From Bacteroidales bacterium (lineage in GTDB: Bacteria > Bacteroidota > Bacteroidia > Bacteroidales > UBA932), in NCBI GenBank assembly GCA_017631435.1, contig JAGBTG010000002.1:1-42018 (forward strand): a stretch of DNA of 42,018 bases, given 5' to 3'. The translations under genes and the position numbers were made by a program. The notes beneath the pieces are model-generated. The model worked only from the letters and a program-made list of their open reading frames with translations, was not told the origin of the DNA and did not search any database. Positions 25,482 to 42,018 of this stretch are shown piece by piece. The stretch's first letter is position 1; every line of letters starts with the position of its first letter.

Positions 25482-27374
25482 ATGAAAAGATGTGTGTGTA
25501 TGCTGGTATCCCTTACGCTGCTCTCCTGTGCAGGTGGTAAAAAGCTTTCAATGGTGCAGGAGCAGGGGATAACAGTGGATGTGGCAGTGGGGAGTTTGGA
25601 TGATGTTTACAGGGAGTCTGCAGATGTGCAGCCGGAGGTTGAGGTTGTTGAGATAGAGGATTTGCAGGGGAGAAAGATTATTATGAATGCTGTAAAGGAT
25701 GAGGAGACCGGGGAGATGGTTGCCCAGGAACAGTTGAATGAGATTGTAGTACAGGCCAGGTTCTGCCATGTGGCGGAGAGGAATGGTGTAGTGGACCTTG
25801 TATTTGAACTTGCAGTGCCGGTGGAACTTCAGCAGAGGAGATGGCAGGTGAGGTTTTATCCAAAGTATATGTATATGGGGGACACCCTCAGGACAGATGA
25901 GATAAGGATTACCGGGGAGACATTCAGACGTGTGCAGCACTGGGAATATATGGTCTACAATAATTATTTGAGTAGGGTGGTGCCTGAGCATGAAGCAGAT
26001 TCGCTGTATGCGCTGAGCAGGCTGATGGAGACTTTTACGGCCCGCCATGGATATGACAGCAGGGCTGAGGAGTATTACCGCAGGAGTTTCCTTGAGTATA
26101 TCAACAGAAAGAAGGACCTGGCAAAAGGGACGATTTATGACAAGTTTGTGGTGGATCCTTTCCCAAAGGGTGGGGTGAGGCTGGATTCTGTTGTGAATAA
26201 TGGATCCGGCGTAATAAGATACTACTATGTGCAGACTCTGGCAGCAGTGCCGGGCTTGAGAAAGGTAGATATGGTTCTGGAGGGGGCGGTGCATACCAAT
26301 GGCCGCAAGTTGTGCTCTTTGGCGGAAACAGAACCCATTACGTTCTATATAAGTTCAATTTCAACTTTGGCCGATGAAACCGAGCGGTATCTTAAACAAG
26401 TGGTTTACAGAGATATGCATTTTGATGCTTCATACAATATTGTTTTTGATAGGGGTGCGTGGAAAGTGGATCCCAAAAAGGAAGATAATGCCGTAGTGCT
26501 GGAGAATATGAGGCGTCATATATTGGAGATTATAGAAAATGAGGATTATGTGCTTGACTCAATACTTGTGGCATCTGCATGTTCGCCGGAGGGACGGTAT
26601 CCTGTAAATGAGAAGCTCTCAATGAAAAGGGGTGAAGAGATAAAGAGGTATCTGCAAAAGACACTCTGCAGTTCCAGAGACTCTGTGGTAAGGGATACTT
26701 GGGTAATTGATGCAGGAGAGGTATCCTCAGATAATGAGGGTGTTGCCGGAGATGGTTCCGTTGATGGAGAGGTTGTGAAGGTAACGCAGATATCGGAAGA
26801 TTGGGAGAGCCTATACCAGATGCTTGAACAGGATTCGCTTGTACACAGGAGTGCACTGATAAGCAAATGCAGGGCAGTGGAGGATCCGGATGCCAGGGAG
26901 GCTGTGTTGCTGCAGGGAAAGGATTCGGAATATATTACCAAAGAACTCTATCCTCTCCTCAGACGGGTAAAATTGAATTTCAAGCTGCACAGGAAAGGGA
27001 TGATAAAGGATACTGTTCACACAACAGTGCTTGATTCCGTGTACATGAGAGGCATTGAGGCCTTGAAAGAGAGGGATTACCGGACTGCTGTCACTTTGCT
27101 TCGCCCATATGGATGCTACAACAGTGCGGTTGCATATATGTGTATGGGGTATGACAATTCTGCGCTGGAGATTCTGGGGCAGCTGCCACGGAGTGCCAAG
27201 AGGGATTATATGTTGGCTATAGTATATGGAAGACTGGGCGATGAGAAACTGGCTCTGGAATATTTCCTTGCTTCAGTAGAGCAGGATGAATCTATGAGAC
27301 ACAGGGGAAACCTTGATCCGGAAATAGGAACTTTAATTAAAAAATATTCACTTTTTAATCAAAATTATCAGTAA
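25482..27374 (+). CDS. OmpA-like lipoprotein in the fimbrial operon
   Basis: This 630-residue protein has an SPII signal with lipobox LLSC (Cys16). Residues about 90-170 form a beta-rich part with ELAVPVELQQRRWQVRFYPK and GETFRRVQHWEYMVYNNYL. Residues about 295-400 look OmpA-like, ending DSILVASACSPEG, NEKLSMKRGEEIKRYLQ. The C-terminal 120 residues contain two TPR-like repeats (GIEALKERDYRTAVTLLRPY and IVYGRLGDEKLALEYFLASV). The layout recalls accessory proteins encoded beside Bacteroidetes fimbrillins (DUF3868-like), but I cannot place it in a named family with certainty. It overlaps the fimbrillin gene by one base, so the two are coupled. Confidence 0.8.
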   Translation: MKRCVCMLVSLTLLSCAGGKKLSMVQEQGITVDVAVGSLDDVYRESADVQPEVEVVEIEDLQGRKIIMNAVKDEETGEMVAQEQLNEIVVQARFCHVAERNGVVDLVFELAVPVELQQRRWQVRFYPKYMYMGDTLRTDEIRITGETFRRVQHWEYMVYNNYLSRVVPEHEADSLYALSRLMETFTARHGYDSRAEEYYRRSFLEYINRKKDLAKGTIYDKFVVDPFPKGGVRLDSVVNNGSGVIRYYYVQTLAAVPGLRKVDMVLEGAVHTNGRKLCSLAETEPITFYISSISTLADETERYLKQVVYRDMHFDASYNIVFDRGAWKVDPKKEDNAVVLENMRRHILEIIENEDYVLDSILVASACSPEGRYPVNEKLSMKRGEEIKRYLQKTLCSSRDSVVRDTWVIDAGEVSSDNEGVAGDGSVDGEVVKVTQISEDWESLYQMLEQDSLVHRSALISKCRAVEDPDAREAVLLQGKDSEYITKELYPLLRRVKLNFKLHRKGMIKDTVHTTVLDSVYMRGIEALKERDYRTAVTLLRPYGCYNSAVAYMCMGYDNSALEILGQLPRSAKRDYMLAIVYGRLGDEKLALEYFLASVEQDESMRHRGNLDPEIGTLIKKYSLFNQNYQ

Positions 27375-28393
27375 TGAAAAAATTATTTATGTTGGCTACC
27401 GTAGCTGCATTGGTATGCAGCTGTAGCAAGGAGGAAATGAGGGTTGAATCAGGTTTGGAGAGCACACTTTATCTCTCAATTGTTCCCGACGGGGGAACCA
27501 AAGCCAGTGGAGAAGGCCATGGGAATCAGACTGAAGACAATACTGTAAATACCCTTGAGATATTTATTTTTAGGGATAATCCGGGTAAGCCCGATGATGG
27601 CATATTGGATACATACTGCAAACTTACAGGAGATGAAGTCTCTTCAACTTCAAACTTGGCAATACAGACTACAACCGGCAACAAGATTATCTATGCTGTA
27701 GCCAATGCCCATGGGGCAAACTGGAAAGATGTAAATACCAGGCAGAAGTTTGAAGAACAGACAGCAAATCTGGCAGATGAAAACTCAAAGAATTTCCTGA
27801 TGGTGGGAAGTGCCGAAGCAATATTGAACATTACATCGGTAGTGAGCTTCCCAATCAGAAGACTTGTGGCCAGAGTGGCGATAAACTCAATCAAGACAGA
27901 TTTTGCCGGAGGCCCATATGAAGGGATGGAACTAACTGACGTGAAGGCGTATCTTATTAATGTACAGGGTGCTAAGCGAATATATAATGGCGTGGGAAAA
28001 AACCTGCTTGTGCTGAATAAAGGCAAACTTGTAGAAGAAGATGCGGCAAGTTGTACAATGGCGGGGGCAATATATGACAGCTTCACCGCACCAGTTTCTG
28101 ATGCCGGCTACACTACACCGCATTATTTCTACTGTTATGAGAATGCCCCTGTAAGGGAGAAAGAAGATGATAAATATACACGTCTGATTGTTGAAGGCAA
28201 ACTCAATGGCATGACATACTATTATCCTATCGTTTTTAAAAGTGTCATAAGGAATAATTGCTACAGTGTTGATATAACAATAAAAAGGCCGGGCTCACTT
28301 GATCCGGGTACCGATATCTACAAAGGCAGTATGGATACCACCATCAGTATAGTTGATTGGGATGTTCATGACAACAATGATGTAGAATTTTAA
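27374..28393 (+). CDS. Mfa1/FimA-like fimbrillin (type V pilus subunit)
   Basis: This 339-residue lipoprotein precursor has an SPII signal with lipobox VCSC (Cys17). The mature part begins with a strand (STLYLSIVPDGGTKA). The N-terminal domain includes NTLEIFIFRDN and KIIYAVANAHG, hallmark strands of P. gingivalis FimA/Mfa1-type fimbrillins. A lysine/arginine site suitable for gingipain-like cleavage (FPIRRLVARVAI) follows. The C-terminus TTISIVDWDVHDNNDVEF has the conserved terminal strand. Subunits of this class are exported as lipoproteins, trimmed, and polymerised by donor-strand exchange. It overlaps the upstream gene by one base. Confidence 0.83.
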   Translation: MKKLFMLATVAALVCSCSKEEMRVESGLESTLYLSIVPDGGTKASGEGHGNQTEDNTVNTLEIFIFRDNPGKPDDGILDTYCKLTGDEVSSTSNLAIQTTTGNKIIYAVANAHGANWKDVNTRQKFEEQTANLADENSKNFLMVGSAEAILNITSVVSFPIRRLVARVAINSIKTDFAGGPYEGMELTDVKAYLINVQGAKRIYNGVGKNLLVLNKGKLVEEDAASCTMAGAIYDSFTAPVSDAGYTTPHYFYCYENAPVREKEDDKYTRLIVEGKLNGMTYYYPIVFKSVIRNNCYSVDITIKRPGSLDPGTDIYKGSMDTTISIVDWDVHDNNDVEF

Positions 28394-29330: not shown

Positions 29331-29403
29331 GATTCGCTAGCTCAGCAGGTAGAGCACAACACTTTTAATGTTGGGGTCCTGGGTTCGAGCCCCAGGCGGA
29401 TCA
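29331..29403 (+). tRNA. tRNA-Lys (anticodon UUU)
   Basis: A complete 73-nt cloverleaf is present. The acceptor stem is GATTCGC/GCGGATC, the D arm GCTC-AGCAGGTA-GAGC, the anticodon stem CAACA/TGTTG with loop CTTTTAA (anticodon TTT), the variable loop GGGTC, and the T arm CTGGG-TTCGAGC-CCCAG with discriminator A. CCA is not encoded. A terminator lies 7 bp downstream. Confidence 0.97.
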
Positions 29404-29409
29404 CAAGAG

Positions 29410-29435: not shown

Positions 29436-29460
29436 GTATCTGTAATAAATAAAGATTATT

Positions 29461-29972: not shown

Positions 29973-31952
29973 ATGGTACGCAAATGCATCATTTTATCAG
30001 TTCTGATGGCCGTAATATCCCTTTTGGGTAGCAATGGCCTTGTGTATGGGCAGGGAACAGGAGATATTCTTTTCAACGAATATGTGAGGAATGAGTCAAC
30101 ATATCTTGCCCAGAAAATCCAGTTTCCAAGATCGGATTTTGACAATCCTTTTACTTTGGGCCAGCAGCTTTCTGAACTTGTGGGGGATTTGGATTATACT
30201 TCTGCTGTGGTTGTGCAACAGTGGATTGGAGGATCGCAAAGTGAGAAGTTTGATGATCCACACAAGATATTGGAAATGGATCCGGTGTTCCTGTGCTTCA
30301 ACAGGGAGGGGAGCAGCCTCAAGTTCAAGCATCCCGATATTACTGCAACCGTTTTCCTGAACTATCGGGAAGACAGTACTGGCCTGGAGAGGACCATGGC
30401 GGTGCATTTCAATCCTAGAGGGTTTCCCCAGAAGGTGGTTTATACCCGTACTTCAATTATGATATCTCCGGTTGGGGAGGATGATCTGGAGAGTTTCAAC
30501 TCTGAGTCCTCTGCAGTTTCTGCAAGTTATCTTACTGCTTTTGATGTTGCCCCGGACCAGGAGTATAGAGAACGTTTCAGCAAGGTTCTGTCAAGCACAG
30601 TGCACAAGGATTCAACTGGCGGGGAGTTTGATATGACCGAATTGAGCTGCAAGAAGGGGCTTGATGAGTCTGATGATTTGGAAAATGCCATTTATTATGG
30701 TCAGCGTCTGATGCAGGACAATAGCCTTTTTGACGGTTCCATGGCATGGGCTCCCGCATTTGAGAAACTTAAGAAAAGCATCAGACCGGATACCGCTGTG
30801 GTTGATGAACTGTTCCACAAGATATGTGCAGGAATGGGGGCATGCAACTGGGCTATGGGAAATTTTGATTCTGCAGACTATTATTTTGGGCTGTTGGAAG
30901 ATGTGACTGATTCTCTGGAATTTGACCTTGCCAAGTATGAAGAGAGCAGGCTTCAGGCACCGGCTCTTATGGACGGCCCTGGAACATATCTTGGACAGGT
31001 GCTTCCAATCCTGTATGATATTCCTGAAGAATCTCTCCTTGAGGCTGTTGTGGAGCGTAATGGAGAGATTGTACGCATAACCGGGAAAGATAAACTGTGG
31101 AACTATAACCTTAAAGATCTCTGTACCTCGGGCGTCTCAAAAATGGTGCTTTCATACACCCGCTCTGTTGAGGTGATGGGACTGGAGGAGATAATGGACG
31201 AGTCGGTTCTATGCAACTTCAACAACCTTGTAATCACCGTTGAAAAGGTTGCAGAAACCCTTTTCAGGGTAAATATAATGCACCCAAAATTCAAACGTTT
31301 TGATTATAAGAATCATCCCGACAGCGATTTGAATACCCCAGACATGGCATCATTCATAATGTCCTCCCTGCCGGTTGAGCCTCTTGATGCAGGGGGGAAG
31401 AGCCTCAGTTTGAAGAAGATTGAAGATAAATTGTCATATGTGGGAACACTGAGAAATTCCAATTGCAGTATGGAGGCGGCTATAGCGGCGCTGCAATTGT
31501 GCAGGGAGATTGACCGCCTTCCGCAGAAACAGCTGCAGAAAGAAAAGGGGCAGATACTCCATCTTACCGCCCTGTATATAGCCGGCACATTGCTTGCAGA
31601 CCTTGATATGCCATACAAGGCTATCTCATATTTGAGGAGAAGCACCCGGATAATTCCAACATACACTACAATGAGCGAGTATATTGCAATCCTGACCAAC
31701 GAGATGGATCCGAGGGCATTCCATATTGTACTGGAGGAGATAAGGGGTCTGCAACAGTACCAGGAATCCAAATCCCCCGAGCAGGCAGAGTATGCGAGTT
31801 TCCTCAACCGCCGCCTAGCCTATATGCTTATAGACTACAAGGCCTACAATCAGGCAGAGGAACTTCTGCAAGCCCTCCTCAATGATCCCCTAAGTGCCGA
31901 ATTCGCACGCCACGAACTTGAGTACATAAAACAGATAAGGGAAAGTGAATGA
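29973..31952 (+). CDS. secreted protein of unknown function with C-terminal helical repeats
   Basis: This 659-residue protein has a signal peptide of the SPI type (MVRKCIILSVLMAVISLLGSNGLVYGQ). Residues about 30-200 look beta-rich. Residues about 225-310 look helical, with a run resembling a TPR (ICAGMGACNWAMGNFDSADYYFGLLED). The C-terminal 130 residues contain further TPR-like pairs (TLLADLDMPYKAISYLRRST and RRLAYMLIDYKAYNQAEELLQ). No catalytic motif is visible and no family is recognised. It stands alone between terminators. A periplasmic or surface-scaffold role is only a guess. Confidence 0.85.
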   Translation: MVRKCIILSVLMAVISLLGSNGLVYGQGTGDILFNEYVRNESTYLAQKIQFPRSDFDNPFTLGQQLSELVGDLDYTSAVVVQQWIGGSQSEKFDDPHKILEMDPVFLCFNREGSSLKFKHPDITATVFLNYREDSTGLERTMAVHFNPRGFPQKVVYTRTSIMISPVGEDDLESFNSESSAVSASYLTAFDVAPDQEYRERFSKVLSSTVHKDSTGGEFDMTELSCKKGLDESDDLENAIYYGQRLMQDNSLFDGSMAWAPAFEKLKKSIRPDTAVVDELFHKICAGMGACNWAMGNFDSADYYFGLLEDVTDSLEFDLAKYEESRLQAPALMDGPGTYLGQVLPILYDIPEESLLEAVVERNGEIVRITGKDKLWNYNLKDLCTSGVSKMVLSYTRSVEVMGLEEIMDESVLCNFNNLVITVEKVAETLFRVNIMHPKFKRFDYKNHPDSDLNTPDMASFIMSSLPVEPLDAGGKSLSLKKIEDKLSYVGTLRNSNCSMEAAIAALQLCREIDRLPQKQLQKEKGQILHLTALYIAGTLLADLDMPYKAISYLRRSTRIIPTYTTMSEYIAILTNEMDPRAFHIVLEEIRGLQQYQESKSPEQAEYASFLNRRLAYMLIDYKAYNQAEELLQALLNDPLSAEFARHELEYIKQIRESE

Positions 31953-32226: not shown

Positions 32227-34602
32227 TTAGTTGAAATCGTAAATCTGCAATCCGTACATACCGTAAGCTACATAGATACGGCCGTCGGGACCTTTCTTTA
32301 CAAAGTTTGCAGACTCTTTGATTGTTGTCTCATCTTTTACACTGGTAGCACCTTTGCCGGTGTAGTTGAATTTCTTGATGGTGCGGTTATATGTCTTGCC
32401 GTCAGCATCTGTGTATGTTGCGTTTTTATCAAGGATAGCAAGACCATCGCCTGCTGCAAGATAGATGTATTTGTCGTCAACGTCTACACCATTTGTGTGC
32501 TTTTTACTTCCGCCCACAAGGTTTCCGCTGTAGTCATATACGCCAAATCCGTTTTGTCCTTTACATACATAGATGTATTTGTCATCACAGATACATACAT
32601 TCTTTCCATCTGTAGGGGTAACTGCTCCTGTTTCAAATGAACTCTCCGGTTGCATTGATGAGTTGTAGATGGTTATTATTCCCCTGTTTGTATTGTTCAA
32701 TGTTATTACTTTGCCGTTGCTTGCATTGTAATATATATATTTGCCCTGGAAGTCCTCATCGGTTTCGTTGATGAATTTCTTTTCCTGATTGCTTACATCG
32801 TCCAAGGCAAACTTGTTGATACCGCCTTTTGAGTAACCGGAAATAGTTACAAGCTCATCTCCTATACGTTCCACGCAATTTGCAGAGTATCCGGTAAGAT
32901 TTACGCGAATTTCTTCAAATTGCTCAATTGCAGGGAATTTTCCGTCGCTTGTAAGAGCTATTTCGCTTAGAGCTGCTCCTACATTATAGTTTGTTGCAGC
33001 GGAGTACAATTTATTGTTGGAGTAGATGATGTGATTGTATTTGAATGCATCATTTTCCATTGTCTGCTCAAACAAACTGCTTGTAATATCATATGTATTT
33101 ATGTTTATGATATCAATAATACCGCCAAAATCCTCAGCACCATCTACGGATGGACTGTAGTCCTCTTCTGTATAACCCATATTGGTGGCAGGGTTTGAAT
33201 GCCAGCATACATATACTGTACTGCCGTTGAATGCTATACCGGTAGCAGAGTATTTGTGTGATGCCGATGTTGTAGGAGGAAGTACCTCTGCAACAGGTAC
33301 TTTTCCTGTCTCTGCACGGCAACCGTCTTCTGATGCGGGTAGCCAGCTGTTGGCATTTATACTTACGGTTTCAGGTACTACAAGGTTGTCTTCTGTAAGT
33401 ATAGCCAATGATTCATCAACTTCATGGTAGAACTTGATGCGGAGGTCTGCCTCAATATTCAGGTCACCTGTGAAATTGTTGCAAGGGAAACTTGCTGCCG
33501 CTACTGTGCCGTTTGCGGTAGTGTAGTCATTGCCGCGGTCGAGGTAAAGCTTGCCGCCAACCTTTATAATGGATTTGTAATCTGATTCTACTCCGTTGAT
33601 AACGACTCTCTGGTCTCCTTTGTCTACAAACATACCGTCATTGACAATTTCAAACAACGCATCTTTCAAGTTCATGGTTGCCTTTCCCTGATTTGTCACT
33701 AAGGTGCCTGCAGTAAGGGATTTGTTTACATTCAAGATTGCGTTTCCGGTAGCGCTTTTGAAGTCAAGTTCCTCTGCTACAACGGTACAACCGTCAAATG
33801 TCGCTTTTGCATCACCTTCTACCAAAAGATTTCCAGCAATGTAAAGTTCATTGGTGAAATGGGATGTTCCACCATATATACGGGCAGAACCGTCTACATT
33901 CATTTTACGCTCGCAATAGAAATCAGAAAGAGGATCAACCTGGAATGTTATGGTTTCTGTTCCGTTGTTCCTTACGTTGAACGGTTCTCCTTGTGTGCCG
34001 TAAATGTGTACTTTGCCGGCATCATAAAGCCTGAATCCCAGATTCTCCGGAGTGTCAATGTTTCCCCAGCAGTATACGTTGGTGGCTTTCTTTATTTTTA
34101 CCATATTGTCCCAGCCAACTTCGCAATATGTCATTACGGAGTTAGGTAGAATGTAGATGTTTACTGGTGTGTCATCATTCCACCATGCGCCAAGTATTGT
34201 GGCATTGGCACCAAGATAGATGTCAATTGAGCCTTGTGTGGAACTCCAGTCCTGGCTGATTGTACCTTCCCATGCTTGGTCAATATAGTAAGAATTACCT
34301 CTTGTCAAGGTTACTCCATTGTTCCAGTTGGTAGGTTGTTCGGTCAGCTTTAGTGCTCCGTTGGGAATGCTTGGGGCTGCAGTTGATGATAGAGTTGTAC
34401 GAATGGCTTTTGATTCCACTGTTGTAGCGGGAAAAACCAATCGGGAAGATAATTGTGACATGTCATCAACAATGGTCACGTGGTCCGGAGTAGTTATATC
34501 CGGAGTCTGGCCTTCAGGGGTGATACTGCGATCATCCAAACACGATGCAAGTATAACCATCATCAGGCAAAAAGAGCTTGCAAATACAATTTTCTTTTTC
34601 AT
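32227..34602 (-). CDS. large lipoprotein with beta-helix-like and beta-propeller-like parts
   Basis: This 791-residue protein has an SPII signal with lipobox LASC followed by LDD (Cys21). Residues about 100-400 look like a right-handed beta-helix or similar solenoid, with many short N-, G- and T-rich strands (DIYLGANATILGAWW, VDGSARIYGGTSH, LYIAGNLLVEGDAKATFDG). Residues about 455-791 resemble a beta-propeller of short repeats, with recurrent KYIYVCKGQNGFGVYDYSG and YGLQIYDFN strands as in LVIVD-type proteins. I do not recognise the family. It lies downstream of the exopolysaccharide operon on the same strand but has its own promoter. Confidence 0.85.
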   Translation of the reverse strand: MKKKIVFASSFCLMMVILASCLDDRSITPEGQTPDITTPDHVTIVDDMSQLSSRLVFPATTVESKAIRTTLSSTAAPSIPNGALKLTEQPTNWNNGVTLTRGNSYYIDQAWEGTISQDWSSTQGSIDIYLGANATILGAWWNDDTPVNIYILPNSVMTYCEVGWDNMVKIKKATNVYCWGNIDTPENLGFRLYDAGKVHIYGTQGEPFNVRNNGTETITFQVDPLSDFYCERKMNVDGSARIYGGTSHFTNELYIAGNLLVEGDAKATFDGCTVVAEELDFKSATGNAILNVNKSLTAGTLVTNQGKATMNLKDALFEIVNDGMFVDKGDQRVVINGVESDYKSIIKVGGKLYLDRGNDYTTANGTVAAASFPCNNFTGDLNIEADLRIKFYHEVDESLAILTEDNLVVPETVSINANSWLPASEDGCRAETGKVPVAEVLPPTTSASHKYSATGIAFNGSTVYVCWHSNPATNMGYTEEDYSPSVDGAEDFGGIIDIININTYDITSSLFEQTMENDAFKYNHIIYSNNKLYSAATNYNVGAALSEIALTSDGKFPAIEQFEEIRVNLTGYSANCVERIGDELVTISGYSKGGINKFALDDVSNQEKKFINETDEDFQGKYIYYNASNGKVITLNNTNRGIITIYNSSMQPESSFETGAVTPTDGKNVCICDDKYIYVCKGQNGFGVYDYSGNLVGGSKKHTNGVDVDDKYIYLAAGDGLAILDKNATYTDADGKTYNRTIKKFNYTGKGATSVKDETTIKESANFVKKGPDGRIYVAYGMYGLQIYDFN

Positions 34603-34700: not shown

Positions 34701-35978
34701 TTACAGCCTTTCAGTTATTATTTCTCTGTCAAGGACACCTTTTACGTCGTAGAAGATGCCATCGGGCTTTTTGAGAGATGACATTTCTATATCGTTGAAG
34801 CAGTCGTGTTTTACGCAGTAAATCACGGCGTCATACTGGCCCCTTTCCAAATCACGCTCATCGGTTGTTATGTTCATTCCGTATTCATGTTTGGCTGCTT
34901 CTTTGCTTACCCAAGGGTCATAGATGGTTATATCTGATGTGTATGCCTTGAGTGAATTGAATACATCCACAACTTTTGTGTTTCTTATATCCGGACAGTT
35001 CTCCTTAAATGTGAATCCAAGAATCAGCATTTTTGAGCTCAATGCATGAAGATTATGCATATTCATGCAGCGTACAACACGTTCTGCAATGTAGTTGCCC
35101 ATTGTGTTGTTCAATCTGCGGGCCTCTATCATGATTCTTGGCACAACACCGCGCATTGTGGCGCGTTGGATAAGATAGTAAGGGTCTACACTAATGCAGT
35201 GTCCTCCTACAAGTCCAGGGCTGAAATTGAGGAAGTTCCATTTTGTTGAGGCTGCTTTCAAAACATCTGTTGTATCTATTCCCAATGCGTTGAATACAAC
35301 GGCAATTTCGTTCATGAATGCAATGTTGACGTCCCGTTGGGTATTTTCCAAAATTTTGGCAGCCTCTGCAACCATTATGCTTGGAGCCTTGTGTGTTCCC
35401 TTAAGCAATACGGAATTATATAGGTTGTCAATGACATCAGCAGCTTCTGGTGTTGAACCTGATGTGATTTTTGGTATGTTTTCTACAGTGTGTACACGGT
35501 CTCCAGGGTTGATACGCTCAGGAGAATATCCCAAATAGAAATCTTCATTGAGTTTCAAGCCGGAAACTTTCTCAAGGATAGGGGCACATACTTCTTCTGT
35601 AACACCGGGATATACTGTAGATTCATAAATTACATAATCTCCTTTTTTTAGGACTTTGCCCACAGTGGTGCTTGCCTTTTTCAATGGCAGCAGCTCCGGG
35701 TTGTAGAAGTCATCTACTGGTGTAGGTATGGCAACTACATATACGTTACACTCTCTAATATCATCCATGTTGTTTGTGCATACCATGCCGTTTGCCAGGG
35801 CAGCCTCCAATACACTTTTTTTAACCTCGTTGGAGGAGTCAAATCCTCTATTGATTTCATCTATTCGGGTTTCGTTTATGTCAAACCCTATTACTTTATA
35901 TTTCTTGGCAAAAAGGCAGGCTAGGGGAAAGCCTACATAACCCAATCCTATTATGCCAATTTTAAATTCCTTATGCAT
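34701..35978 (-). CDS. UDP-sugar 6-dehydrogenase (TviB/WbpO-like)
   Basis: This 425-residue protein is a nucleotide-sugar dehydrogenase of the UDP-glucose/GDP-mannose family. It oxidises the C6 hydroxyl of a UDP-hexose to a uronate with two NAD. The Rossmann motif IIGLGYVGFPLA is at residues 9-20, TVYPGVTEE at 121-129, the ENTQRDVNIA helix at 211-220, and the catalytic cysteine is C261 in GGHCISVDPYY. Sequence and exact length resemble TviB of the Vi capsule, which acts on UDP-N-acetylhexosamines, more than AlgD or Ugd. It ends the five-gene exopolysaccharide operon, 20 bp after the GT2 gene, and probably supplies its uronic-acid precursor. Confidence 0.92.
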   Translation of the reverse strand: MHKEFKIGIIGLGYVGFPLACLFAKKYKVIGFDINETRIDEINRGFDSSNEVKKSVLEAALANGMVCTNNMDDIRECNVYVVAIPTPVDDFYNPELLPLKKASTTVGKVLKKGDYVIYESTVYPGVTEEVCAPILEKVSGLKLNEDFYLGYSPERINPGDRVHTVENIPKITSGSTPEAADVIDNLYNSVLLKGTHKAPSIMVAEAAKILENTQRDVNIAFMNEIAVVFNALGIDTTDVLKAASTKWNFLNFSPGLVGGHCISVDPYYLIQRATMRGVVPRIMIEARRLNNTMGNYIAERVVRCMNMHNLHALSSKMLILGFTFKENCPDIRNTKVVDVFNSLKAYTSDITIYDPWVSKEAAKHEYGMNITTDERDLERGQYDAVIYCVKHDCFNDIEMSSLKKPDGIFYDVKGVLDREIITERL

Positions 35979-35998
35979 TATATGTGTGTTTTATATGT

Positions 35999-37318
35999 TT
36001 ATATACCTTCAATTTGTGCCAAATCTGATGTCTTCTTAGGATTCCACGGATCTTTATATGATGAGAAGAAGAACAACTCCTTGATATGGGCCAGCAGACG
36101 GGTACTGCGGAGAAAGTAACCTGTGTAGAACGAGCTGAGCAGAAGGTATGGTATAAGTTTCCTCTCTTCCGATGCGCGTTCTGATACCATCATTATAACT
36201 CCAAATGCAACCAATGAGAAACAAAGCCTTATGAGCCAGCTTACCAAAAAGATTTCAAGCAGCCTGTCGGTGTGCATGAATACCAATGTTATCATGTAGA
36301 ATAGCCATAAGAAATTGAATACGCAGTCGTATAGCAAGTTTTCCATATTTGATATCCAGTTCAGGAAGTTGAAATGCTTGTGTGGCATAAGGATATCAAA
36401 GTGCTTGCGTAAACGGAAACGGATAAGAGATTTGCTCCATCTCTGGCGCTGTTTGAAGAGGGCATGCCAGGCTGTCGGGACATTGGTCATGCATATTGCA
36501 TTCTCTGCAAAGTATACTTTGTCTCCGGATTTTCTTATTTTTTGGGTGATGTCCCCATCCAATCCTGGTCCAATATCCCACATTCCAATTTGCATCAGTT
36601 TATTGCGTTCAAATGCTCCGAATGCGCCAGATATGATGTGATATATGCCAAGTGTATTGGTAACCATTCGTCCAACCTGAATAGTTTTGAGGTATTCCAA
36701 CGCCTGCATTGATGTGCATAAAGATTCTTCTGAGTTTCTAACCTTTACACAGCCTCCTACTGCTTTGATTTTTGGATCATAGTAGAATGGAATGAGAATC
36801 TTTTCTATGGCATCCCTGTCTAAAGAGGAGTCTGCATCAAGATGGACTATGTATTTGCCTTTAGCGTAGTGCACTCCAAAATTGGCAGCACTGGCCTTTC
36901 CTCCACGGATGTCTGACCTCAGGTATAAATCTATGTAGCCGGCTTTTTCCAGGTCTCTGCAGATCAAGGGGGTGGCATCGTCGGATCCGTCGTCTACAAT
37001 GATGATTTCGTAGTTGCGGTATGTTTGTTCATTGAGAGATTTTACCAGCTTGTATATATGTTTGCCTTCATTCTTTCCAGGGGCAAGGATTGTTATGAGG
37101 GGGTTCTCTATGTACAGTTTCATTTTTGCAACAGCCATAGCTTTTTCCCTTCTCCTGTACGTGATCTTGTGCCATATGGCAATGACAAATTCAAGAAAGT
37201 AATAACGTGGAAATTCTATGAAAAAAAGGAACCAGTAGGTATGCAGTACTGCACTCCACGACAAATTTCTCGTAAAGCAGGCAACAATGCCATCTACTAT
37301 GTTAAAAATGATATCCAT
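35999..37318 (-). CDS. processive family 2 glycosyltransferase (polysaccharide synthase)
   Basis: This 439-residue membrane enzyme has one or two N-terminal membrane segments, a cytoplasmic GT-A domain, and about four C-terminal membrane segments (from about residue 320). The GT2 residues are all visible: IIIVDDGS (D109, D110), HLDADSSL (D161, D163), GPGLDGDITQKI (acid near 254-256) and the processivity motif Q290-R-Q-R-W294. This is the cellulose/hyaluronan/alginate synthase type, which links sugars and translocates the chain through the inner membrane. Together with the dehydrogenase it should polymerise a uronate-containing chain. It lies 18 bp after the zinc-ribbon gene. Confidence 0.92.
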   Translation of the reverse strand: MDIIFNIVDGIVACFTRNLSWSAVLHTYWFLFFIEFPRYYFLEFVIAIWHKITYRRREKAMAVAKMKLYIENPLITILAPGKNEGKHIYKLVKSLNEQTYRNYEIIIVDDGSDDATPLICRDLEKAGYIDLYLRSDIRGGKASAANFGVHYAKGKYIVHLDADSSLDRDAIEKILIPFYYDPKIKAVGGCVKVRNSEESLCTSMQALEYLKTIQVGRMVTNTLGIYHIISGAFGAFERNKLMQIGMWDIGPGLDGDITQKIRKSGDKVYFAENAICMTNVPTAWHALFKQRQRWSKSLIRFRLRKHFDILMPHKHFNFLNWISNMENLLYDCVFNFLWLFYMITLVFMHTDRLLEIFLVSWLIRLCFSLVAFGVIMMVSERASEERKLIPYLLLSSFYTGYFLRSTRLLAHIKELFFFSSYKDPWNPKKTSDLAQIEGI

Positions 37319-37336
37319 TATATTGGGATAAAATTC

Positions 37337-38728
37337 TTAATTATCCTTGCTTATTCTTTTTATAAATGCTTCTATTTTTTCTCCTTCATTCTGGTTCAGA
37401 TAGTTCGGCTCGGAGAGTACTATCCCCGGATATTTGAGGTCTATAATTTTCATTGTCTCAAGATACTCCTCTTCCATCAGCCTTTTCAAAGTATCAGACA
37501 TGTCGGCAGGAGCCTTTGTTGCCATGAAAATGTTGTTTCCATTGTAAGACAGATTGTTATAATGGTATCTTTTCTGGATATCGCTTACAATGCTGATTAT
37601 TGTCTCTTTGTTTACATTAGGGCCATCAACCTTAAAGCGGTTGATAAAAATGGCTTCATTTTTATCCTTTGAATAAGAGAACAGACGTATCTGTGATATG
37701 AATGATGTGAAGTTTGAGTAGCCGGCCCACAAATCCTTGCTGATTGCAACCAGTGCATCATTAGAAGATAATGCAAGTATTCCATCTGGAGTGAATTCAT
37801 ACAGGTACAGGTCTGTCGGGATCAGATCAGATGGCCTCATAGATTTCCTGCAAGCATGACAATATACTTTCATCTTGGTATGGAGAAAGTTATGGTTGCA
37901 CTCCTTGCATGTATATACATTGGAAGGGCGGTCATAATCAACACCTATGTGTCTGAGGAAGTGATGGCATTTTGGGCATCTGAGCTCTCCGTCATAAAGA
38001 TAGCTTGATTCTGGAGATATGTTGGCGCAGCGGAAATGGTGAAGAACCGGTTCTTCCTGCAAGTTGGAAGAGTTGCATTTGGGGCAGGCCTCCATATAGA
38101 ACAGATGAGTGTTCTTGCACTTCGGACAAATATGTATACGTTCTAAGAATTTGGTCTTTATTGCATAACCCAAATCCATAAGTATGTGGTTGAAGTGTAT
38201 GAATTCAGCTCTCATGTTGCTGAGCAGGTTGTTCTGTTTGGCAACAAAAAGTGCTGTGTGTCCAATGGCATAGGCCTTGTCCAAAGACATGGTAAAGGTG
38301 TTCATGCCCCTGGAGATTGCGTATTTGCAGAGCTTGAGAAAGTATATATAATTGCTTTTAGTAACTTCTGCTATGTCAAAGGTCTCAATATAAGCCAATT
38401 TTTCATAGATGTCATTAGAGAGTTCGTTCAGAAGCTTGTCATCTATTGAATCTACATATCCATCTACAACGGTACTCAGGCCAAGTACGCGGTTCTTCAA
38501 TGACGTCTCAAGGAAACGGGGCTTAAGGTGGCATTTGAGACTGTGAAAAGGAGACATCAGTTGCAACTGATAGGAGAGCTCCGCATGTGTCTGCTTCGTA
38601 TCCATAATCCAGATTATGTCAAAATCCTCTGTTTTGATCTCTTCTGTCAGGTCTATATTTATAACTCCCTCTACAATAAGAATATTGCGTCCGGATAAGT
38701 TTGTCTTAATCTGATAATTGCTTGCCAT
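37337..38728 (-). CDS. multi-zinc-ribbon protein of the exopolysaccharide operon (TackOD1-like)
   Basis: This 463-residue protein has no signal peptide or membrane segment, so it is cytoplasmic. Residues 1-110 are mixed alpha/beta. Residues about 125-300 contain several helices and then clustered CxxC pairs at 201/204, 215/218, 251/254, 274/277 and 290/293, with C234 and a HH pair at 230-231, enough for two or three zinc ribbons. This arrangement resembles TackOD1, a metal-binding output domain. The C-terminal part (about 320-430) may be a degenerate GGDEF-like fold (IFINRFKVDG and YNGNNIFMAT), without catalytic residues. It sits between the fusion protein and the synthase, 2 bp from the former, so a regulatory or scaffold role in polymer synthesis is inferred. 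Confidence 0.85.
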   Translation of the reverse strand: MASNYQIKTNLSGRNILIVEGVINIDLTEEIKTEDFDIIWIMDTKQTHAELSYQLQLMSPFHSLKCHLKPRFLETSLKNRVLGLSTVVDGYVDSIDDKLLNELSNDIYEKLAYIETFDIAEVTKSNYIYFLKLCKYAISRGMNTFTMSLDKAYAIGHTALFVAKQNNLLSNMRAEFIHFNHILMDLGYAIKTKFLERIHICPKCKNTHLFYMEACPKCNSSNLQEEPVLHHFRCANISPESSYLYDGELRCPKCHHFLRHIGVDYDRPSNVYTCKECNHNFLHTKMKVYCHACRKSMRPSDLIPTDLYLYEFTPDGILALSSNDALVAISKDLWAGYSNFTSFISQIRLFSYSKDKNEAIFINRFKVDGPNVNKETIISIVSDIQKRYHYNNLSYNGNNIFMATKAPADMSDTLKRLMEEEYLETMKIIDLKYPGIVLSEPNYLNQNEGEKIEAFIKRISKDN

Positions 38729-38730
38729 TT

Positions 38731-39897
38731 TTACTGATGATTAATATGTTCCTTTACCTGTTCCGGTATCTTCAAACCTTTAGGTGTTGTCAGCATAAGA
38801 TACTCTTCCGGAAGCACTTGCTCATATTCCAGATTGTTGAAACGGATAATTACGGGCATTCCGTTCACAAGAGACCAGAACGGGATATCTTGTCCATCAT
38901 CTATCTTAAGAACGGCAATGGCCGCAATATGATCTTTTGACAAGTTGTTCCTGTAACCATTAGGAATATCCTCTGTTCGGGCACCCATAGAAACTACAGT
39001 AGCCGTATATTTTATGTCGTTGTTCACTATAACCGTAGCTTTGAAACCTCTGTTCAGGTATTTTGCACGGTAAGGAGTCACATATGCCATAACGTAAACA
39101 TTGTCCTTCTCAAGGTTGAAACTTTGGGTTTCAATTATATCTTCTCCTCTCAACACCAGAGAAAGCTCAGAAATCCAGTTCTTTGTAACAAGTCCTGAAT
39201 CAGCGGCAATGGTATAGTGGACCAGTCCCAAATCCTTCATCTTTCTCTTGTTTCTCACATCCTGGATAGAGAAACCACCGCTGTTTACCTTATCTATGCG
39301 GGTAACGGCATCCTTGGATTCGCCAATTGCCTTCTGCAAAACATATAGTTTGCGCTGTTCAGCTTTAAGCTCTTCTTCTGTTTCCTTGTATTCCCTTTCC
39401 AGATTAAGTTTGTGCACATTATCGCTCAGCCCAAAACGGATATTGTGATCTTCCAGCTCTATCTGTCTTTTAATTTCCTCCATTTTTGCCCTTAATACAG
39501 CCAGGTTCTGATATGCCAGGCCATACTGCAGTTTCAGGTCTCTGGACTTTACCACAATGGCAGATTCAGTATTGATATTTCCTATCTCATGGAACCAGTC
39601 CAATGAAACATATGAATAGATAGTGTCTCCCGGTACAATCAAATCTCCGTTGTGTTTGTAAATATCATGCACAAAAACATCTTCCGATGCCCTGAAACGT
39701 ACATTATGTACTACCACATATCCGTTAAAATCCGTGTAAACTATCATACGTGCGCAATAAAGTGCAATGACAGCCATAATGAACACAAAAATGCCAAGGA
39801 AAATAATCTGTTGTTGAGATTTTTTCTTTTTCCTCTGCAGCAGTATCTGTTCTATTTCAGCCTGTTCCTTCTCAGTTGTAAAATGAAAATCTTTCAT
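38731..39897 (-). CDS. HlyD-like membrane fusion protein
   Basis: This 388-residue protein has a short cytoplasmic start, one membrane segment at about 31-52 (IIFLGIFVFIMAVIALYCA), and a periplasmic part. A lipoyl-like half is followed by a coiled-coil hairpin at about 125-205 (LAVLRAKMEEIKRQIELEDH and ETEEELKAEQRKLYVLQKA), then the second lipoyl half (ADSGLVTKNWISEL) and a barrel domain. The shape matches HlyD/EmrA adaptors and the periplasmic half of Alg44. It lacks a PilZ domain. It should bridge the synthase to the TolC-like channel encoded 10 bp upstream. Confidence 0.88.
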   Translation of the reverse strand: MKDFHFTTEKEQAEIEQILLQRKKKKSQQQIIFLGIFVFIMAVIALYCARMIVYTDFNGYVVVHNVRFRASEDVFVHDIYKHNGDLIVPGDTIYSYVSLDWFHEIGNINTESAIVVKSRDLKLQYGLAYQNLAVLRAKMEEIKRQIELEDHNIRFGLSDNVHKLNLEREYKETEEELKAEQRKLYVLQKAIGESKDAVTRIDKVNSGGFSIQDVRNKRKMKDLGLVHYTIAADSGLVTKNWISELSLVLRGEDIIETQSFNLEKDNVYVMAYVTPYRAKYLNRGFKATVIVNNDIKYTATVVSMGARTEDIPNGYRNNLSKDHIAAIAVLKIDDGQDIPFWSLVNGMPVIIRFNNLEYEQVLPEEYLMLTTPKGLKIPEQVKEHINHQ

Positions 39898-39907
39898 TGT
39901 CCGCTCC

Positions 39908-41269
39908 TTAATTTATAATTGTACAGAATTCCAGAACCGAATGGTCCGGCAGATAATTCTGCAACTGTGCAATGCAGCAATCCCTTGAGTACTGATATAA
40001 ATAATAATTTTCCCAACAAGTAAGGTAATGATTATACTCCTTAATGCGGGTAAGGAAATTATATTCTCCAATATGCCCCTTGTAATTCTCTTTCCTTAAG
40101 GCCAAATACTTCCTCAATTGCCTTATACGTTCCAATTCTCCCGCAATGCTACGGTTAGCTCTCTCAATCTCTGCAAAAAGGAGATTGACTTGCTCATTAA
40201 TATAATCTGCAAGCATATCCTTCTCCATAATTTTCTGCATCCTTTCAGCTTTCATAGCCTTCTGTTTGCGGCCTTGCTGTGAAGTCAACGGAATCTGGAA
40301 AGCTATACCTGCATCAATATTGGATGAGTTTTTTATTTGGGGACGAACATAATATGAATATCTTACAAAAGGAGAGATATTCAAGGTCCTCCAATATGTC
40401 GTTCCAATTTCCTGCTGCTGCAACAACTCAATCTGAAGATCTGCCTCTTGCAGCATCAGACTGTTCTCCAAAATATGTTTTCTGATGCCAGCAGTATCAA
40501 TCTTCACCATAGCTCCAGCCGGATACACCAATTGTGATGCAACAGGATAATCTTTGGGAACAGATTCCAGCTGCCTTTCAGCAATAGCCTTCTCATCCAT
40601 AAACTTCAACAGGTCATCAGTGCCAATACTCCTGTCGCTAACCAGATACTCTTGAGCATCATAAAGCAACTTTAAATTGTCTATACGAAGTTTTAATACT
40701 CCCGATAGAAGGCTGTCATACTCAGCCCTGAAAAAAATCTGTTGCTTCTCTGTAAGCTCCTTAATCTCATCCTTAAGGAAAGCCATCCGCTCCAGCTCAC
40801 CTTTCAATTCCAGCTCTTTCATCCGGCTGTCACGGTGAACCAGTGAACTGCTGAGAAAATTCCACCTGAGCTCAACCTGTACCTTAGCATTATAGCGTGA
40901 TAAAGCATCTTCATCATCAATTCCAAATCCCTCATCCAGACGATAATAGCTCTGTCCAGAAACCAACAGGCCGTTCTCCGCCTTAAAGGCCTCTTTCTGC
41001 ATACTCACCTTATCATTGATCAAAGAATCAACAGCCAGCATGCCTGTTCCATCAAAACCATTATACATCCGGAACTGTTGGTACTGCTGTGGAGCATCTC
41101 CATTTTTAAAGATTAAAGAATCCAAAAGGGCAAAACGTCTCTCAAATCCACGGAACAAATCTTTATAAACCAGCTGCTGGGACAAAACAGGTGAACATAA
41201 AAGCAATGCAAAAGCAGTCCCCCAAATTTTCAGGAGACAACGGATGCTGTTTGTGCCCAATTTTGTCAT
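39908..41269 (-). CDS. TolC-like outer-membrane channel
   Basis: This 453-residue protein has a signal peptide (MTKLGTNSIRCLLKIWGTAFALLLCSPVLSQQ region). Long helical hairpins at about 160-260 and 350-420 surround short beta segments (ISPFVRYSYYV and DAGIAFQIPLTSQQGRK), the usual layout of TolC outer-membrane factors. A TTG at 41299 would extend it by ten residues but lies upstream of the likely transcription start, so the ATG at 41269 is chosen. It is the first gene of the exopolysaccharide operon and should provide the exit duct for the polymer. Confidence 0.85.
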   Translation of the reverse strand: MTKLGTNSIRCLLKIWGTAFALLLCSPVLSQQLVYKDLFRGFERRFALLDSLIFKNGDAPQQYQQFRMYNGFDGTGMLAVDSLINDKVSMQKEAFKAENGLLVSGQSYYRLDEGFGIDDEDALSRYNAKVQVELRWNFLSSSLVHRDSRMKELELKGELERMAFLKDEIKELTEKQQIFFRAEYDSLLSGVLKLRIDNLKLLYDAQEYLVSDRSIGTDDLLKFMDEKAIAERQLESVPKDYPVASQLVYPAGAMVKIDTAGIRKHILENSLMLQEADLQIELLQQQEIGTTYWRTLNISPFVRYSYYVRPQIKNSSNIDAGIAFQIPLTSQQGRKQKAMKAERMQKIMEKDMLADYINEQVNLLFAEIERANRSIAGELERIRQLRKYLALRKENYKGHIGEYNFLTRIKEYNHYLTCWENYYLYQYSRDCCIAQLQNYLPDHSVLEFCTIIN

Positions 41270-41296
41270 AAATGTTCTGAATTTAAAAACAAGCTT

Positions 41297-41327
41297 CAAA
41301 GATACTAAATGTATTTTAAAATATAAA
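41297..41327 (-). promoter_or_regulatory. promoter of the exopolysaccharide operon
   Basis: On the minus strand TATCTTTG (41304-41297) matches TAnnTTTG exactly, with TTTA about 19 bp upstream. The predicted start near 41290 is 20 nt before the ATG at 41269. Confidence 0.6.
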
Positions 41328-41779: not shown

Positions 41780-41835
41780 TCTCCACTGGATAAAAAAAGC
41801 CAGTCCTTATGGGCCGGCTTTTTATCCAGTGGAGA
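41780..41835. repeat. 17-bp inverted repeat spanning the ssrA 3' end
   Basis: TCTCCACTGGATAAAAA at 41780-41796 is perfectly inverted at 41819-41835. The right copy includes the last six nucleotides of the tmRNA acceptor strand. The ssrA terminator hairpin is between the two copies. Confidence 0.8.
41792..41823 (-). terminator. ssrA terminator
   Basis: On the minus strand the sequence reads AAAAAGCCGG-CCCATAAGGA-CTGGCTTTTTTT, a stem including GCC.GG/C.GGC with flanking A and T runs. It starts 7 nt after the mature tmRNA 3' end. Confidence 0.8.
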
Positions 41836-42018
41836 TGGGCGGACTCGAACCGCCGTCCAACCAAACCATCAATATGCTTTCTACATGCTTATTCTTTCTT
41901 TAATTGTCGGGAACAGGCTGCCGAAAGACAGGCCACCTGTAACTTATCCTTTGGGGCTTAGGGTGCTTTAAAGGAGTCCGCACCGGCATCCTGCTTGGAA
42001 TGATACCCCATATGCCAG
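41830..42018 (-). ncRNA. ssrA: tmRNA (ssrA), 3' part, cut by the window end
   Basis: The minus strand ends in a tRNA-like domain: T arm GGCGG-TTCGAGT-CCGCC, acceptor 3' strand CATCTCC and discriminator A. It is preceded by the conserved TAAGCATGTAG block and GGTTTGGTTGGACGG. tmRNA with SmpB rescues stalled ribosomes. CCA is not encoded. Only the 3' 189 nt lie in the window; the tag-reading frame and 5' acceptor half are outside, so the tag peptide cannot be read. One copy of the TGTCGGGA octamer lies inside the gene (41905-41912). Confidence 0.93.

Follow-up and report, generated by a model that had tools for sequence, protein, structure and literature searches.

The systems closest to the operon described here are the synthase-dependent exopolysaccharide (EPS) systems, which in the available part of one account combine a synthase, a cyclic di-GMP (c-di-GMP) regulator or co-polymerase, modification enzymes and a pore coupled to tetratricopeptide repeats (TPR) (PMC7112194). 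The operon lies on a 42,018-nucleotide stretch of DNA from a Bacteroidales bacterium (contig JAGBTG010000002.1 of assembly GCA_017631435.1), hereafter called the window, and comprises genes for a TolC-like outer-membrane channel, an HlyD-like periplasmic adaptor, a zinc-ribbon protein of the TackOD1 family, a glycosyltransferase of family 2 (GT2) and a nucleotide-sugar dehydrogenase. An earlier note on this DNA had likened these genes to the alginate operon and regarded the system as a matter of the Bacteroidetes. Since the set lacks the c-di-GMP-regulator and TPR-scaffold features, it resembles synthase-dependent systems in its presumed working and is not a member of them as defined. The likely product of the operon is, in our view, a synthase-dependent polysaccharide machine that has an HlyD/TolC-like exit and is gated by TackOD1 instead of by PilZ.

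In the alginate system (Alg8-Alg44-AlgK/AlgE, with AlgD), one operon likewise supplies a GT2, an HlyD-like periplasmic component, a regulator in the cytoplasm and a dehydrogenase for sugar nucleotides (for the make-up of Alg44, the accessible part of PMC8461298). In contrast to alginate, the window operon has no PilZ, its regulator and adaptor are separate proteins with a TackOD1 zinc ribbon as the regulator, its exit is TolC-like instead of AlgK/AlgE, its dehydrogenase is probably of a UDP-N-acetylhexosamine (UDP-HexNAc) type, and modification enzymes are absent from its five genes. A GT2, an HlyD-like adaptor and a TolC-like channel have also been proposed as a tripartite exit for cyanobacterial cellulose, namely XcsA-XcsB-TolC; XcsA, however, has a PilZ domain and makes cellulose, the genes are scattered in T. 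vulcanus, and the exit is unproven there too (PMC12430437, as far as its available sections go). PelD and BcsE carry a degenerate GGDEF domain with an RxxD site, as do three gammaproteobacterial TackOD1 proteins, whereas the window protein shows no such site and the Pel synthase is a soluble GT4 (PMC8461298, same part). PgaC/IcaA is the nearest named NCBIfam model for our GT2 (152 bits, far under the equivalog cut-off of 422), and the hidden Markov model (HMM) of the GT2 family finds E. coli PgaC at 187 bits, but no counterpart of PgaD, PgaB or PgaA is present among the five genes. The dehydrogenase is nearest to the TviB model of the Vi capsule (482 bits, below the cut-off of 592 and therefore not assigned as an equivalog), whereas the ABC exporter and the TviC epimerase, which are parts of the Vi capsule system, are not found among the five genes. 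We know of no TackOD1 in the XcsA-XcsB-TolC system and of no zinc ribbon in PelD or BcsE. Among the open-licence PubMed Central literature matches listed, none of the titles, abstract openings or text portions available described TackOD1 together with a GT2 or HlyD.

The five contiguous open reading frames (ORFs) on the minus strand (34701-35978, 35999-37318, 37337-38728, 38731-39897 and 39908-41299) are separated by 20, 18, 2 and 10 bp, so that the tight spacing described earlier is real. From the upstream end, they encode the TolC-like outer-membrane factor (39908-41269 with an ATG start at 41269, or from an alternative TTG at 41299; OEP match), the HlyD/EmrA-like adaptor (38731-39897; family matches to HlyD_3, a profile match to EmrA, and hydropathy), the TackOD1 protein (37337-38728; PF18551), the processive-type GT2 synthase (35999-37318; PF00535, with DxD, a second acidic pair and QxxRW) and a nucleotide-sugar 6-dehydrogenase, probably of the UDP-HexNAc type and TviB/Cap5O-like (34701-35978; NCBIfam and PDB scores). 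ORFs and Pfam matches bear out the composition given in the earlier note, while its extent fell one same-strand gene short, namely that of a lipoprotein (32227-34602). At E 0.1, Pfam showed no PilZ match in the five operon proteins, which upholds the notion of a GT2-synthase operon without PilZ, and no GGDEF match in the window proteins; nor was TPR matched in the five operon proteins or the lipoprotein.

The gene set recurs as a unit. An evenly drawn sample of 395 genomes of the phylum, our own included, contained matches to the TackOD1 protein in 12 genomes at E 1e-3, and the GT2 was matched at E 1e-60 in the same 12. Both genes were present in 13 copies (two of them in genome G401), and all 13 pairs are adjacent, 12 in the fetched regions and the window as the thirteenth. 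Under independent draws such a co-occurrence would have a chance of 4e-23, a figure for orientation only because the genomes are related and our own was present by design. When 296 phylum genomes were searched with the PF18551 HMM, 13 gave a match, ten of these over the cut-off. From at least 575 relatives in named genomes the best 80 were taken, a selection that leans to close relatives; two of these loci (L053, L054) are without an intact TackOD1 ORF, leaving 78. By ORF calls, HlyD and/or GT2 directly adjoin TackOD1 in 59 of the 78 and not in 19, but in one of the latter (L099) the GT2 is next to TackOD1 by coordinates, so that 18 orphan loci remain. The order TolC-HlyD-TackOD1-GT2 was found in 44 of the 78 named loci, 30 of them with the dehydrogenase at most 6.5 kb downstream and several others cut by contig ends. 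Three loci (L019-L021) have the TolC-HlyD pair some kb off with a gene for ∼655 amino acids and the dehydrogenase between, and six copies hold a ∼110-residue ORF between HlyD and TackOD1. Counted from the first start codon, the HlyD and TackOD1 ORFs overlap most commonly by 4 bp. Both the phylum genomes and the named loci thus agree with the proposed conservation, as the genes are not rarely neighbours. Cultured strains of Paraprevotella clara, Segatella copri and Heminiphilus faecis are among the named carriers. The Bacteroidales-type operon also appears, at 64% identity, on a 3.4-kb contig (L032) assigned to Lachnospiraceae, probably through a binning error.

The TackOD1-linked machine is not confined to Bacteroidota, contrary to what the earlier note had supposed. 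TackOD1-GT2-HlyD occurs in a bin labelled Aminicenantes (L107) and on plasmids of Alpha- and Gammaproteobacteria. A plasmid search for TackOD1 gave 21 matching records, of which the 20 listed comprise 15 bacterial ones (Alpha- and Gammaproteobacteria, including near-duplicate pairs) and five haloarchaeal ones. The GT2 lies beside TackOD1 in all 15 bacterial records listed, with one small ORF between in Alisedimentitalea, and HlyD follows in the 14 bacterial loci read through, in Aeromonas after a TolC gene; the fifteenth record, also from Aeromonas, has a locus spanning the record start, in which the GT2 alone was seen. Conversely, a plasmid search for the GT2 at E 1e-30 returned 16 records, 14 of which are the TackOD1 records. 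A further GT2 record, from a Sinorhizobium medicae plasmid, has a small TackOD1-like ribbon ORF after HlyD. This 118-residue stop-to-stop frame (L137:7176-7529) is a minimal TackOD1-like ribbon and perhaps the smallest partner form. In the haloarchaeal Halorussus plasmid (L115:4950-7911), a TackOD1 gene is followed by a DUF2334 gene and then by a GT2 gene. The 29-kb Aeromonas caviae plasmid pKAM329_3 (L133), which carries a TackOD1-GT2-TolC-HlyD set, is typed as mobilizable. Because the carriers include this type of plasmid as well as cultured strains, the polymer may play a part in colonisation and in biofilms.

The protein that had earlier been described as a cytoplasmic zinc-ribbon protein is present but had been left without a name; it is a TackOD1 protein, as it matches PF18551 at E 1e-42 and 146.1 bits against a cut-off of 32. 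The same model matched 38 of 38 members of the TackOD1 family set, the window included, at E 1 or better. TackOD1 was named in a 2018 paper which, in its available part, describes 11 conserved cysteines as five CXXC and one HXXC, terms the function obscure, and presents TackOD1 as an output domain of response regulators, including a form with a receiver domain and a winged helix-turn-helix, REC-wHTH-TackOD1 (PMC5847659). The window protein has 11 cysteines (201, 204, 215, 218, 234, 251, 254, 274, 277, 290 and 293) and an HXXC, H231xxC234. All 11 are invariant across 17 sequences, window included, and the invariant histidine of that alignment is H230. A hydropathy scan detected no hydrophobic (transmembrane) segment in the protein. 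Its layout consists of an N-terminal domain (∼1-118), the zinc ribbon (182-311 by Pfam) and a C-terminal domain (∼316-463). The N-terminal domain matches the separate ∼110-residue ORF between HlyD and REC-TackOD1 in six other Bacteroidota operons (hhalign 94%, and 98% for intermediate forms), and judging from these profile scores the two are related by fusion or splitting. We also considered whether the N-terminal domain is a degenerate REC, but hhalign against the REC domains of relatives reached only 0.5%. For the C-terminal domain, hhalign against GGDEF gave 14% and 27% for two sets and 0.1% for a gammaproteobacterial pair.

Different domains are attached to TackOD1 in different loci. Pfam scans of ten relatives placed REC in four (three Bacteroidota loci and Palleronia) and a GGDEF over the cut-off in two (Plesiomonas, 1e-10; Aeromonas, 2e-8), while two REC-TackOD1 forms carry a GGDEF below it. 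Read by eye, the GGDEF motif is gone from the TackOD1 proteins of Plesiomonas, Aeromonas and Photobacterium, but RDTD is kept five residues before its place, a register that we take from known cyclases. In the window protein, the aligned position shows no RxxD by eye, and GGDEF is not matched. The earlier note saw no c-di-GMP receptor, and the window protein does not show one; the class as a whole does not simply lack a c-di-GMP link, since three gammaproteobacterial members retain RxxD in a dead GGDEF domain. Genes for GGDEF over the cut-off were missing from 17 of 17 TackOD1 genomes (16 with the operon and G604 with an orphan TackOD1), the lone sub-threshold match lying inside a TackOD1 protein. 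Given the varied fused domains, the RxxD in some of them, the lack of GGDEF genes in TackOD1 genomes and the kinase and receiver neighbours described below, TackOD1 would relay a signal to the synthase, with c-di-GMP as one of several inputs and probably unused in Bacteroidota. On these findings, the synthase machine of Bacteroidota may do without c-di-GMP, whereas its gammaproteobacterial relatives keep a c-di-GMP-type site. Moreover, the association suggests a testable job for TackOD1, that of partner of a polysaccharide synthase.

With regard to the exit route, the HlyD-like half of the earlier assignment held. The single adaptor protein matched HlyD_3 weakly (E 0.002; 19.3 bits, under the cut-off of 22.2), and 27 of 38 adaptor family members, window included, matched it at E 0.1. 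The family profile finds EmrA (PDB 8zar at 8e-5; E. coli EmrA at 50 bits), and hydropathy indicates one N-terminal transmembrane segment at residues 31-49. When the adaptor family was compared by hhalign with the HlyD of the Aeromonas plasmid, the score was 91%. The TolC-like half is softer. The channel matched OEP just above the cut-off (23.0 versus 22 bits) and has a signal-peptide-like N-terminus with a hydrophobic segment at 21-39; OEP was matched by 15 of 32 family members, the family profile found no match in the PDB at E 0.1, and hhalign against the TolC protein of the Aeromonas plasmid gave 1%. At eight other loci from Bacteroidota and Aminicenantes, five of the eight proteins in the TolC position match OEP at or above the cut-off. 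An HlyD/TolC-like exit for the polymer is what these similarities suggest, with the TolC part soft. Conceivably, the pair could be a drug or protein exporter that lies by chance beside a capsule-type glycosyltransferase, the more so as EmrA, the closest solved relative of the adaptor, belongs to a drug pump, and a cluster of major facilitator superfamily (MFS) transporter, HlyD and outer-membrane factor genes adjoins the TackOD1 locus of Methylocystis. We regard this as very unlikely, as the adaptor accompanies TackOD1-GT2 in both Bacteroidota and Proteobacteria, and the two commonest neighbour families are lipoproteins and, in the five members scanned, signalling proteins, the rarer families being untyped. 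An exporter with its own ATPase had been named as a possible owner of the pair; there is no ABC, resistance-nodulation-division (RND) or MFS transporter among the five genes and the lipoprotein, the rest of the genome not having been searched for pumps.

The predicted synthase matched Glycos_transf_2 (PF00535) at E 2e-26. DxD, an acidic general-base motif and QxxRW are the marks of processive GT2 synthases, and the corresponding residues D161/D163, D254/D256 and Q290/R293/W294 are invariant in 36 sequences, window included. Processive GT2 synthases possess several transmembrane helices that form a channel for the chain, and a simple hydropathy scan of the window protein revealed two clear hydrophobic segments (328-346 and 356-374). 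Alternatively, the GT2 might be non-processive and make a short glycan or glycolipid head group that is exported or anchored on the lipoprotein at the surface. The recurrence of a lipoprotein gene beside the operon would suit such a role, and we found no biochemistry of this GT2 family in the literature. Nevertheless, the invariant QxxRW and acidic pairs and the kinship with PgaC, both as closest named model and as a target of the family HMM, speak for processivity, and we rate the non-processive alternative as the least probable of those considered.

The UDPG_MGDP_dh N, central and C domains of the dehydrogenase matched Pfam at E 1e-33 to 8e-22, and the NCBIfam subfamily of NDP-sugar dehydrogenases was matched at 378 bits (cut-off 190). 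Besides the TviB score given above, the models for WecC and TuaD reached 209 and 98 bits. Among PDB entries, the UDP-ManNAcA dehydrogenase 4r16 scored 192 bits, Cap5O 176 and GDP-mannose dehydrogenase 92. The protein is thus nearest to TviB-type UDP-HexNAc dehydrogenases and far from GDP-mannose dehydrogenase, and so the parallel with alginate and AlgD drawn in the earlier note fails for the precursor. Because of the likeness to TviB, the UDP-ManNAcA dehydrogenase and Cap5O, the enzyme is probably of the UDP-HexNAc type with an N-acetylhexosaminuronate as the likely precursor, and a polymer of the latter seems more probable than one resembling alginate or hyaluronan, although this is a guess. 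The alginate-like reading was rejected for the precursor on the same scores, and for PilZ on the Pfam result. Twelve genomes were picked for having no called dehydrogenase beside the operon; nine of these 12 hold a copy somewhere, in one case (L102) beside the operon by coordinates. On two rhodobacteral plasmids, galE stands beside HlyD in place of the dehydrogenase.

What the analysis shows is the content, order and co-occurrence of these genes and the domains of their products; from this association, a working scheme can be proposed for enzyme activity, polymer, export, contact, gating and signal. The dehydrogenase would oxidise UDP-GlcNAc (or UDP-GalNAc) to a UDP-N-acetylhexosaminuronate, which the membrane GT2 would polymerise, passing the polymer through its own membrane-embedded portion. 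From there, the HlyD-like adaptor and the TolC-like channel would take the chain over the periplasm and the outer membrane, where a surface lipoprotein would probably hold or organise it. The cytoplasmic TackOD1 zinc ribbon would dock on the synthase and gate it by relaying signals from its attached domain, a role that would parallel that of PilZ in Alg44 and BcsA or of the degenerate GGDEF in PelD; in Bacteroidota, the input would likely be a phosphorelay or another signal, and not c-di-GMP. As a wider and tentative proposal, which we hold to be somewhat less probable than its opposite, TackOD1 could be the standard allosteric partner of one processive GT2 class in Bacteroidota, Proteobacteria and perhaps haloarchaea. 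It would be driven by whichever sensor is fused to it (REC, the ∼110-residue domain, a dead GGDEF that keeps a c-di-GMP site, or no sensor at all) and hence be c-di-GMP-gated in some phyla and c-di-GMP-free in others, the Bacteroidota product being a poly-N-acetylhexosaminuronate with an HlyD/TolC exit and a surface lipoprotein.

Several observations weigh against a TackOD1-gated synthase machine. Of the 80 named loci, 18 hold TackOD1 without HlyD, TolC or GT2 beside it, and all 12 of these 18 orphan genomes that were tested were without the GT2 at E 1e-60. For Thaumarchaea, most reported occurrences of TackOD1 are in type IV pilus loci (PMC4858521, available part), four of the five haloarchaeal plasmid loci have no GT2 within 5 kb, and in one of the 16 plasmid GT2 records, that of Acidithiobacillus, TackOD1 was not detected. 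The dehydrogenase is not beside all loci. The identification of TolC is weak, the HMM of the channel family missing E. coli TolC at E 1, and the hhalign scores demonstrate neither REC nor GGDEF ancestry for the end domains of the window TackOD1 protein. Across the 33 loci that have the complete five-gene set, the pairwise protein distances correlate at r 0.61-0.92 (a level reached by 0 of 999 permutations), which counts in favour of the machine, but shared descent explains part of it. Furthermore, our own genome has no GGDEF gene over the Pfam cut-off, but as a metagenome-assembled genome (MAG) of 88% completeness it does not offer proof of absence.

Part of this evidence would also fit a different division of labour, with GT2, HlyD and TolC as a polysaccharide machine and TackOD1 as a transcriptional or phosphorelay regulator that never touches the synthase. 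REC-TackOD1 forms exist, the REC-wHTH-TackOD1 form fits a transcriptional role (PMC5847659, within the portion available), and the thaumarchaeal link to pilus loci points the same way. In five orphan loci read closely, TackOD1 is followed by a short ORF that is receiver-like by eye, with no synthase near. We nonetheless judge a regulator of this kind unlikely, because the TackOD1 ORFs overlap or nearly touch their neighbours, TackOD1 and GT2 occupy the same 12 of 395 genomes, no DNA-binding domain exceeded the Pfam cut-off in the window protein or in ten relatives, and a minimal ribbon ORF accompanies even the distant Sinorhizobium GT2. A TackOD1 that acts on the synthase remains the reading that we prefer. 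The orphan loci form a TackOD1 clade in Bacteroidaceae- and Prevotella-like bins (L078, L080-L083, L085-L088, L090-L095, L097, L098 and L101), and at L080 a more distant GT2-family ORF stands upstream.

The lipoprotein gene (32227-34602) lies on the same strand as the operon, 98 bp downstream of the dehydrogenase gene. The signal peptide of its product ends in LASC, which by eye reads as a lipobox, and the protein scores 1307, 1154 and 578 bits against neighbours in L041, L040 and L066, respectively. Loci were compared if they show the lipoprotein or if both flanks extend over more than 2.6 kb, and of these 46, 34 have a member of the family (defined by blastp single linkage) no further than 1.5 kb from the operon; as matches were thereby counted at cut loci and misses only at complete ones, this fraction is biased upward. 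Of the 34 placements, 11 are upstream, 22 downstream (three on the other strand) and one between the operon genes. Two more loci have the family further off and ten are without it, while 16 of 62 loci are cut by contig ends. The family was found in none of the 18 orphan TackOD1 loci. A permissive lipobox pattern was present in 51 of 52 relatives, and in many members acidic residues directly follow the cysteine; in Bacteroidota, such residues after the lipobox cysteine are signals for surface export. Among five members scanned with Pfam, one matched DUF5074 and another LVIVD below the cut-off; DUF4114 was seen in L019. A second neighbour cluster, a loose one from single linkage, was found in 17 of 62 loci and consisted of histidine kinases and receivers in five members scanned.

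The contig fits the genus because its recG has counterparts of 90-91% identity in five of the 24 congeners searched, and contamination of the MAG by the operon contig was for this reason judged unlikely. The TackOD1 protein was found in none of 19 congeners and in one of 199 family genomes, our own. A match in G187 was dropped from this count as a chance hit of 17.5 bits to an unrelated protein, presumably with an MsrA-like start. Matches to the congener G616 (L124) end at window position 29437, just past a tRNA-Lys gene on the plus strand (29331-29404), the possible left edge of a variable region. Of two other congener stretches compared with the window, one matched the tRNA alone and the other nothing. 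A possible right edge is a minus-strand tmRNA gene (41827-42018; RF00023, 75.6 bits), the 5′ end of which is cut by the contig end. The operon genes have a GC content of 0.40-0.42 compared to 0.44-0.49 over most of the first 28 kb, although GC is also low in the genes immediately ahead of the tRNA, and attachment-site repeats for tRNA-Lys were sought in the window and not found. The stop of synteny at tRNA-Lys, the tmRNA on the other side, the lower GC and the absence from congeners suggest that the operon may be cargo of a variable region, and tRNA-Lys may be a hot spot.

Congener G616 carries TIR-domain genes (L124:134-3648; ThsB-like by PADLOC) at the tRNA-Lys gene, in the place that the operon takes in the window. 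PADLOC gave no defence match for the five window proteins tried, i.e. TackOD1, HlyD, TolC, the lipoprotein and a 659-residue protein. The latter, encoded on the plus strand at 29973-31952, has a signal-peptide-like start by eye and no Pfam match at E 0.1. Just before tRNA-Lys, a FimA/fimbrillin-like protein is encoded at 27374-28393.

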